A stretch of DNA of 39,506 bases from Thermoplasmata archaeon (GTDB taxonomy: Archaea > Thermoplasmatota > Thermoplasmata > Thermoplasmatales > Thermoplasmataceae). A program made the translations under genes and the position numbers. Below are positions 1-33,236 of the stretch, piece after piece (the first letter of the stretch is position 1; each line of letters begins with the position of its first letter). The DNA is taken from assembly GCA_021818675.1 (NCBI GenBank), contig JAKATR010000069.1:1-39506 (forward strand), read 5' to 3'. The notes beneath the pieces are model-generated. The model did no database searches. It had not been told where the DNA came from and saw only the letters and a program-made list of their open reading frames with translations.

Positions 1-116
1 ACTCATAGGTTCATGTAGAACTGTAATGTAAAATATTCAGCCGAGGTCTTTAACAAAAACCAACAATTTTTTCTTATTCTATGCCAATATAATTTATTTT
101 TCTAAGAGGTGACAGC

Positions 117-197
117 GCGGGGAGAGGGATTCGAACCCTCGCTCTCTAATGAGAAATAGCTTAGCAGGCTACCGCCGTACCGCTGGGCCATCCCCGC
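117..197 (-). tRNA. tRNA-Ser(GCT)
   Basis: Reverse complement GCGGGGATGGCCCAGCGGTACGGCGG...CTGCTAA...GGTTCGAATCCCTCTCCCCGC: 7-bp acceptor stem, T-loop TTCGAAT, anticodon loop CTGCTAA, long variable arm typical of Ser. Confidence 0.95.
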
Positions 198-359
198 TTA
201 TGATGGAAAACGCTCCTGAAGATCGTTCGCTATCTGTTCGAGGACTTCCTCAAAATCATCATTTTCCAGCGTCACAACGTCTCCTGTGGGCAGTATGATT
301 CTAGCTAAATATGTTTCTCCTTCTTTTGAAATTTCAACTTCCGCAAGTCTCTCTGACAT
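198..359 (-). CDS. Small conserved-looking acidic protein (MSERLAEVEISKEG...); track ORF extends to 383
   Basis: Track ORF 198..383. The internal ATG at 359 fits better with a TATA-like element (revcomp AAGTATAATATAGG, about 385-397), giving a near-leaderless mRNA. Stop TAA at 200-198 abuts tRNA-Ser. Confidence 0.7.
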   Translation of the reverse strand: MSERLAEVEISKEGETYLARIILPTGDVVTLENDDFEEVLEQIANDLQERFPS

Positions 360-384
360 GTTATCATCGGTAAATTTCAGCACC

Positions 385-25645: not shown

Positions 25646-25958
25646 GGGACTGCCCGGAGTAAGCCCCCTTCTGTTACCCCTTTCAGGCTTGCAGCATTCG
25701 ACTGATCGGCCTTTAGCCTTCGTCCTACCTGACCCTCCCGGTGGCGTCACAGGGTCTGTTTGGACTTTCTCCGGCCAGGATAAGTTCCCATCGCCACCCC
25801 CGGAAACATCATGTTTTCCAGTCATATTTTACCGGGGAGCGTTTATTTCTTTTCTCATTGCCATTCCTCTCGGAATACCGGCTTTGGACGGTTGGCCTCC
25901 ACCTGCGGAGGGGGGACTTTCCTCACCTCATGGGCGTCAGCTGCTCTCGGGCTTTCCC
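25646..25958 (-). ncRNA. rnpB: RNase P RNA
   Basis: Revcomp contains 5'-GAGGTGAGGAAAGTCC (CR-I) and 3'-ACAGAAGGGGGCTTAC (CR-V). Ends pair as P1 (GCCCGAGAG/CTCCGGGC). Confidence 0.93.
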
Positions 25959-27656: not shown

Positions 27657-29182
27657 GTAACTGGTCAGTCTGTTGTTCCCGACCAATTATCCCGGTATGG
27701 CCATTCTTTTCATAACTGATGGGGCATCTGAAATGAAATTCTTTCCCCTGAGTTTTGATGTGTAGTAGATGGAATATATTTTGGTATATATTTCAGCACC
27801 ACGTTCTGATCTGGATCCACCTGAGGTTTTCCTGTAAATTACAGGAGGTCTGAGACCTCTCTCTGCTCTGTTGTTCGTAGGTTCAACATGAGGATTCATC
27901 ACAAACTGTAACAGCCACTCTTTCTTCCGTTTCAATAGATTTTCCACAAATCTTTGTGATCTCTTATGCTCATAATGGGAGGTAAGAAGGAATGTGAGAT
28001 CGTGATGAAGCTTCTTCACATCTTTCATGGTACCATGACCATGATATTCCTTTGCCTCATCGTATATTGTTTGAAGGCCTTTTTTTATTCTTCCTCCCTC
28101 TTCACCGTAGAATTCTTCAAGTTCCTTTCCATCACATATGATATGTGACCAGAAATATTGCTGATCGTTTTTGGATTTGGATGCAAAGGTTTCCAATGCA
28201 GAATGTCTGTCGTGTATATCGATACCTTTGTGATCAGCAAGCATCTCCAGTGGTACTTCGTGACCATTGCTCTTTCGTATGGCAAATATTGACTCGCTTT
28301 TCGTGAGGAATGCCCATAGGTTGTATGGATTACCGTTTATTCTCCATGAGGTTGAATCCATGTGCCTTGAAGGTGCATCTCTTATTGTCTGTAAAAGAGA
28401 GGTATATTCATATCCAAGTGAATCTGATAGCTGGGAGAGAATATGCTGAATTTCACCTTCTGATATATGTATTCCAAATACATTCATCATGGTGGATGAC
28501 ACATTCTCAATGCTCATCCTCATTCCTATGCGGAAGTATGCAACGGTTAACATTGTTCTGATTGAAAGTGTGGTACCGCATAATGCATCAGGTATTTCAG
28601 GTTCGTATATCCTGTGGCATTTGTTACAACATAATCGATTCATTTTATATTCTATGATATCTGTCTTTATAATGAGTATATCCTCTATGATGCGTTTTCT
28701 TGTACCTTTTCTTCTCAATGAGGAATTACATTCCGGACATTGATGAATATCCAGATTGATCCTGATCCTTCTGGTTGGTCTCTTTCTGATCCTGAAATAT
28801 CCTTTGTGTCCAGGCTGTGCACCCGGTCTTTTCTTTATTTCATCGGTTGATCCATGAATATGAGAATCCTCAGGTTCCGGTATAGTCTCTGCCTGAGATA
28901 TGACATATGGCTTTCCATTCTTAATGCCAATGTTGGAAGGATGTCTTTTTTTGTATTCCTTAATCTGATCCTCAAGTTCCCTTATCTTTTCATTTTGTTT
29001 GTCCACAATCTTCTTAAGATTCTCATAGGCACGCTGGAACTTCTCAATTATCTCCTGATCTCTGGGTGTGTCTGCGGTAAGTAAAATCATTCTATTAATA
29101 TAATGTATTCATTATATCTGGATCTTTCGGTGCATACAACCGCTTTTACAGAATATTATGGCACATTAGACTGACCAGTTAC
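27657..29182 (-). mobile_element. IS66-family insertion sequence (single large transposase ORF)
   Basis: Perfect inverted termini GTAACTGGTCAGTCT at 27657 and 29182; encloses a 467-aa transposase. Confidence 0.85.
27687..29090 (-). CDS. IS66-family transposase (TnpC-like)
   Basis: CPECNSSL zinc motif, HMDSTSWRINGNPYNLWAF, DRHSAL, NNRAERGLRPPVIYRKTSGGSRSERGAE. Confidence 0.92.
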   Translation of the reverse strand: MILLTADTPRDQEIIEKFQRAYENLKKIVDKQNEKIRELEDQIKEYKKRHPSNIGIKNGKPYVISQAETIPEPEDSHIHGSTDEIKKRPGAQPGHKGYFRIRKRPTRRIRINLDIHQCPECNSSLRRKGTRKRIIEDILIIKTDIIEYKMNRLCCNKCHRIYEPEIPDALCGTTLSIRTMLTVAYFRIGMRMSIENVSSTMMNVFGIHISEGEIQHILSQLSDSLGYEYTSLLQTIRDAPSRHMDSTSWRINGNPYNLWAFLTKSESIFAIRKSNGHEVPLEMLADHKGIDIHDRHSALETFASKSKNDQQYFWSHIICDGKELEEFYGEEGGRIKKGLQTIYDEAKEYHGHGTMKDVKKLHHDLTFLLTSHYEHKRSQRFVENLLKRKKEWLLQFVMNPHVEPTNNRAERGLRPPVIYRKTSGGSRSERGAEIYTKIYSIYYTSKLRGKNFISDAPSVMKRMAIPG

Positions 29183-33128: not shown

Positions 33129-33236
33129 TTGAAAAGAAGTTCAAGGGACTGGAAAAAACGCGGAAACATGCGATGGAAGTGGAGAAAGAAGAGAATCCGA
33201 AGGCTGAAAAAGCAGAGAAAGGCTAACAGGACGTAA
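33129..33236 (+). CDS. rpl41e: Ribosomal protein L41e (aL41), TTG start
   Basis: TTG AAA AGA AGT ... = [35 protein letters not shown]; preceded by GGGGTGA SD. Not in the ORF track because it is only 35 aa. Confidence 0.85.

Follow-up and report, generated by a model that had tools for sequence, protein, structure and literature searches.

A conserved small protein gene of 53 amino acids and the tRNA-Ser(GCU) gene that begins on the base after its stop codon probably form one dicistronic mRNA-tRNA transcription unit, which would be driven by the TATA box of the open reading frame (ORF), and the lack of any spacer between the two genes would be a product of compaction rather than a regulatory device. 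We assign this reading a probability of roughly 77%. The DNA analyzed (the window, 39,506 nucleotides in full length) is contig C7 of a 1.42-Mb archaeal genome assembled in 99 contigs, and its relevant features are collected in Table 1. The sequence of the minus strand, ARAGORN and Rfam confirmed that the zero-gap junction described in an earlier note is real, and the Rfam match to the tRNA ends at position 116. The same note let the ORF start at GTG 383 (61 amino acids). This start is unlikely and we took ATG 359 instead since the conserved residues begin there and a conserved TATA-like box is located 37 to 26 nt upstream. When the 3′ end of the ORF was included in the predicted fold, the acceptor stem of the tRNA still formed.

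Table 1. Features of the window that bear on the ORF/tRNA-Ser(GCU) unit and on a second abutting gene pair
Feature	Coordinates	Strand	Evidence
Small conserved ORF, 53 amino acids (ATG 359–357, TAA 200–198)	198–359	−	Homologs, dN/dS, pLDDT of the model
Stop codon TAA, last base 198, immediately 5′ of tRNA base 1	198–200	−	Sequence; gap 0 in 32/67 orthologous loci
tRNA-Ser(GCU), apparently single copy, lacking a TATA box of its own	115–197	−	ARAGORN; Rfam RF00005, 60.2 bits; one match in its own genome; promoter score −2.3
TATA-like box AAGTATAATATA, predicted promoter of the whole ORF-tRNA unit	385–396	−	Score 8.9; conserved in relatives
RNase P RNA gene (archaeal), presumed processing enzyme	25648–25956	−	Rfam RF00373, 171.8 bits, full-length match
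rpl41e (ribosomal protein eL41), TTG start after a GGGGTGA motif, TAA 33234–33236	33129–33236	+	Pfam Ribosomal_L41, weak match that does not reach the curated cut-off
tRNA-Trp(CCA), 67-nt intron, begins directly behind the rpl41e stop codon	33237–33377	+	ARAGORN, long introns allowed

Homologs of the ORF were present in 59 of 61 relatives, and thus the objection raised in the earlier note, that the ORF might not be conserved, does not hold. A profile search retrieved family members from 177 of the 200 genomes of the class, a number that counts in a distant paralog group, so that some of these sequences are not strict orthologs. This paralog is about 31% identical to the small ORF and has a wide distribution in the order, for instance at G000:C57:13011–13163 and in many relatives. 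The named relatives found with this protein belong to the Thermoplasmatales and their allies (E-plasma, Thermogymnomonas, Cuniculiplasma, Thermoplasma, Acidiplasma, I-plasma), and more distant ones to Aciduliprofundum/DHVE2. When 57 sequences were compared, synonymous differences were near saturation (median pS 0.84), pN was 0.16 and the median dN/dS was 0.097 for those comparisons in which dS was measurable. Judging from these substitution patterns, the ORF is a genuine protein gene under strong purifying selection. Synonymous variation in the ORF extends as far as its last codon, which speaks against a hidden RNA element near the junction. AlphaFold predicted three strands followed by a helix (beta-beta-beta-alpha) with a mean pLDDT of 89.8. 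For the protein we obtained no Pfam match above the cut-off, no NCBIfam match, no credible sequence match in the PDB and no fold match at E ≤ 0.001. Matches to retinoic acid-binding proteins (E about 0.001) were limited to a beta stretch of 31 residues, and we judged them spurious.

The order of the two genes is conserved. The ORF is followed by tRNA-Ser(GCU) in all 19 sampled genera of family f1 (Thermoplasma and allies) and also in family f3 (the I-plasma family). The genes flanking the pair differ by genus: an Lhr-type helicase gene is located upstream in six genera and another gene in six, and there is no common downstream gene. In the sister families f4, f5, and f6, no tRNA follows the ORF and tRNA-Ser(GCU) is encoded elsewhere with no tightly abutting coding sequence. 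Among 67 distinct loci (63 measured by pattern, L013 and L017 read by hand, plus L274 and L275), the gap is 0 in 32, −1 in two and −10 in six, and it ranges from 1 to 10 in the others. Exact zero gaps occur in 12 genera of f1 and in one genus of f3, whereas the cultured relatives Thermoplasma, Cuniculiplasma, and Acidiplasma have gaps of 1–10. The earlier note had counted a varying gap among orthologous loci as an argument against a meaningful junction. This expectation was borne out in part: exact abutment is not required, since the gap runs from −10 to +10 between orthologous loci and varies even inside genera, but the pair itself is kept. The stop codon may be TAA, TAG, or TGA, and together with the varying gaps this rules out both stop codon identity and strict zero spacing as constraints. 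Where a gap exists, the base 5′ of the tRNA seems never to be C: T, A, or G was counted there by eye in 24 of 24 pattern-measured loci, whose sequences are related. A C in this position could pair with the discriminator base G73. Stop codons end in A or G, so that at zero gap a base other than C is provided automatically.

A tree calculated from the ORF and the tRNA requires a minimum of 17 gap changes. The rate of gap change per branch length was about 1.0 starting from gap 0 and 3.2 starting from gaps of 4–10 nt, and this roughly threefold difference comes from a tree of 231 columns with many weakly supported branches. Slower change at gap 0 is expected without selection because a zero-length spacer offers one insertion site only. 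Compared with a spacer of about 7 nt, a pure target-size effect predicts an approximately eightfold slower change at zero, whereas about threefold is seen on this weakly resolved tree, which speaks against target size as the only cause. Selection for the zero gap is not required by the data. Three observations make exact zero look like compaction rather than tuned coupling: the gap drifts, synonymous positions remain unconstrained right to the end of the ORF, and the rate of change at zero is still about one third of that at longer gaps. Gaps above 10 nt are missing altogether, a hint that the two genes are under some pressure to stay close.

In the I-plasma family f3, the two genes overlap at some loci. 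At gap 0 (L050) the junction reads AAA ATA TAA, followed directly by GCGGGGATAG. At gap −1 (L174) it reads AAA ATA TA and then G CGGGGATAG, so that the G is shared. At gap −10 (L179 and others) the ORF ends AAG ATA CAG CGG GGA TAG. Loss of one A and a single T-to-C change at the junction separate these three states. Two further loci of this family have gaps of 1 and 10. The order 0, −1, −10 would be the simplest reading of the letters, but L174 branches outside the clade that comprises L050 and the −10 loci and the tree does not prove the order. At the −10 loci of the I-plasma clade, the stop codon is formed by tRNA bases 8–10 (U8-A9-G10), and for this reason RNase P cleavage would strip the stop codon from the mRNA. 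Since the stop codon lies inside the tRNA, a single RNA of this kind can give an mRNA with a stop codon or a mature tRNA, but not both. The sequences suggest that the pair persists although no stop codon would be left on the mRNA after cleavage, and they fit either translation before cleavage or tolerance of nonstop mRNA. The earlier note had expected an mRNA ending exactly at UAA. This cannot be general, since in eight loci the stop codon and the tRNA have bases in common. The I-plasma overlap offers a natural way to ask whether translation by archaeal ribosomes precedes RNase P cleavage. One I-plasma genome (G042) carries, in addition to its intact copy, a decayed second ORF and tRNA-Ser copy (L280:1346–1574) with two stop codons in the ORF and a mutated tRNA. 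By eye, the decayed copy looks nearer to family f1 than to the intact copy of this genome, and it is possibly a transferred or wrongly binned piece.

It was proposed before that translation and tRNA maturation interfere or are coupled through the zero gap. According to this explanation, the terminating ribosome would cover the RNase P site, so that translation of the ORF would gate maturation of tRNA-Ser or cleavage would gate translation, and abutment would be selected. Zero is indeed the commonest gap and no locus departs far from it, tRNA-Ser(GCU) is apparently single copy (one intact match in each genome checked), and the I-plasma loci with the stop codon inside the tRNA would force a choice between the two products. 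However, the gap drifts in both directions, also inside genera, and zero-gap lineages change only about threefold more slowly than those with gaps of 4–10 nt. Moreover, synonymous sites and stop codon identity are unconstrained, and the family search gave no connection of the ORF protein to serine or tRNA. We found no evidence for coupling and consider it rather unlikely. We are equally doubtful about direct competition of termination and tRNA 5′ maturation on one RNA, in which a ribosome finishing the ORF would shield the RNase P site and an I-plasma transcript would become either translatable mRNA or mature tRNA-Ser. If true, such competition would link the supply of this serine tRNA to translation.

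To quantify promoter-like elements, we used a 12-base TATA matrix learned from the upstream regions of tRNA genes of two relatives (G003 and G010), from which the Ser(GCU) tRNA was excluded. The scores reflect consensus matching only, and the 95th percentile of random genomic positions (6.1) served as threshold. Upstream of the ORF, the median score was 9.1 and 89% of 62 loci exceeded the threshold. Archaeal TATA-to-start spacing would put the transcription start close to the ATG, and thus the suggestion of a TATA-like element in front of ATG 359 and of a nearly leaderless mRNA appears sound. Upstream of tRNA-Ser(GCU), none of 63 loci exceeded the threshold (median −2.0), as the earlier note had read from the window, whereas 64% of other tRNAs did. 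In f4, f5, and f6, tRNA-Ser(GCU) is mostly preceded by an AT-rich, TATA-like stretch about 25–40 nt upstream (by eye, unscored). Because these families mostly keep such a stretch, the tRNA behind the ORF in f1 and f3 lacks a box that it holds elsewhere, and it has apparently lost its own promoter in these two families. With a TATA box before the ORF and none before the tRNA, the proposed co-transcription from the ORF promoter gains in plausibility.

It is improbable, in our estimate, that the tRNA has a promoter of its own that is not TATA-like and is located inside the ORF, so that the two genes are transcribed separately and merely abut. The coding sequence before the tRNA is free at synonymous sites, no conserved AT-rich element was seen there in the 63 loci, and the sister families retain a TATA-like box in front of this tRNA. 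When the tRNA genes of the two genomes G003 and G010 were sorted by score, an ORF or tRNA was located ≤25 nt upstream in 11 of 20 TATA-less tRNAs vs 7 of 68 others (Fisher p = 7 × 10−5). This count considered ORFs of at least 60 amino acids, so that the Ser(GCU) pair of G010 (57-aa frame) counts against the association. By the rule used, 9 of the 20 TATA-less tRNAs lack a near upstream gene, and for this reason the matrix must miss some promoters. Non-consensus promoters may therefore exist in the same genomes, and this is what speaks for a separate promoter. Chance abutment, or an artifact of a spurious ORF or of the contig end, is hardly credible: the window contig does stop 114 nt beyond the tRNA and the sister genome G003 has a 38-aa, probably spurious ORF that ends at gap 0 upstream of tRNA-Ser(GGA), but conservation and dN/dS rule out a spurious ORF, the junction is conserved in many contigs including some complete genomes, and the same junction is internal to contigs of 556 kb and 2.2 Mb. 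A lone zero gap could be chance, but judging from the sequences its recurrence over 19 genera and a second family is more than that.

Transcription as one mRNA-tRNA unit remains the reading that we prefer. The pair is adjacent, conserved and on the same strand, a promoter-like box precedes the coding sequence only, and RNase P RNA is encoded in the window. From these patterns we infer that the TATA box upstream of the ORF drives both genes and that the mRNA is leaderless or nearly so. RNA polymerase would read through from the ORF into the tRNA, and ribosomes would translate the ORF while the transcript is nascent or still uncut. Cleavage by RNase P at tRNA base 1 would set free an mRNA with the stop codon as its 3′ end. 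Zero spacing would be the end point of compaction: a tRNA that has no promoter and follows a coding sequence needs no spacer, and a spacer of zero length leaves few sites for indels.

The earlier note had reported the same layout at 33236/33237, and this is correct: the TAA of rpl41e abuts an intron-containing tRNA-Trp(CCA). We found matches to rpl41e in 54 of 61 relatives, including one weak match. Where the pair is present (parts of f1, f3, f4, and f5) the gap is −1 to 3, and in other genera tRNA-Trp is absent behind rpl41e. More close pairs were seen in sister genomes, namely eL15 with tRNA-Ser(UGA), RpoN with tRNA-Pro(GGG), and DUF1015 with tRNA-Thr(CGU). In two families, the eS1 (S3Ae) gene is followed at about 0–13 nt by an intron-containing tRNA (L078:11968–12621, L111:787–1437, L190:2247–2966), which appears to be tRNA-Met as named by its CAT anticodon with intron. 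In two genera, the G of the TAG codon of an adenosine-specific kinase gene is base 1 of tRNA-Arg(CCG), which corresponds to a gap of −1 (L074:6363–6857, L268:8653–9207). Because of these pairs, the ORF/tRNA-Ser junction is one of a set, and likely mRNA-tRNA units in Thermoplasmatales can be flagged behind eL41, eS1, eL15, RpoN, and the adenosine-specific kinase.

Comparable layouts exist in other systems. In animal mitochondria, coding sequences and tRNAs abut (tRNA punctuation) and truncated stop codons occur. Here too the genes abut, a cut at the tRNA edge would set the 3′ end of the mRNA, and the −1 overlaps would leave UA after cleavage, as in mitochondria. In contrast, the archaeal case is one single unit that has a promoter of its own and full stop codons in most loci, among them the TAA of the window, and only the two −1 loci would leave UA. 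Completion of stop codons by polyadenylation is not known for this unit. In function, the abutting layout would resemble mitochondrial tRNA punctuation without belonging to that system. In Nanoarchaeum equitans, tRNA promoters give leaderless tRNAs and RNase P is absent. The lack of an intergenic leader before the tRNA is common to both, but none of 63 loci had a TATA box above the threshold at about 26 nt upstream of tRNA base 1 and the window encodes RNase P RNA, so that the unit described here represents the opposite solution.

Co-transcription of tRNAs with protein genes has already been reported in archaea. In Thermococcus kodakarensis, tRNA-Lys lies inside the 5′-UTR of TK0306 as a co-transcript (PMC4247193). 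For Haloferax volcanii it was suggested by tRNAs that lack a proximal start site, one of which is possibly part of a multicistronic operon (PMC4983044). As in these cases, the tRNA would be transcribed with a protein gene and processing would be needed to free it, as predicted here from sequence comparison. Unlike them, the tRNA is located 3′ of the coding sequence with zero spacer, the arrangement is kept over 19 genera, and coding sequence and tRNA overlap in one clade. Archaeal protein gene pairs are reported to use stop-start overlaps for translational coupling (PMC10666635; PMC6728339). Neighboring genes share bases there in −1 overlaps as they do here, but our downstream gene is an untranslated tRNA and for this reason termination-reinitiation cannot apply. 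In the open-access literature, we found no description of the ORF/tRNA-Ser(GCU) junction. What is new is how widely the junction occurs, that it has no spacer, and that in one clade the tRNA contains the stop codon. The loci provide a comparative series of a tRNA that lacks its own promoter and follows a protein gene, with an overlap of the two in that clade.

Some minor observations concern the surroundings of the tRNA. The end of the window contig shares 28 bp with contig C85 (window 100–127), and several contigs of metagenome-assembled genomes stop at the 3′ end of tRNA-Ser(GCU) (L007, L012, L023, L025, L147). By eye, integrase-like ORFs adjoin tRNA-Ser(GCU) in L005 and L019, and integration may take place at the 3′ end of the tRNA. 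A gene for an IS66-family transposase is located at 27687–29090 of the window.
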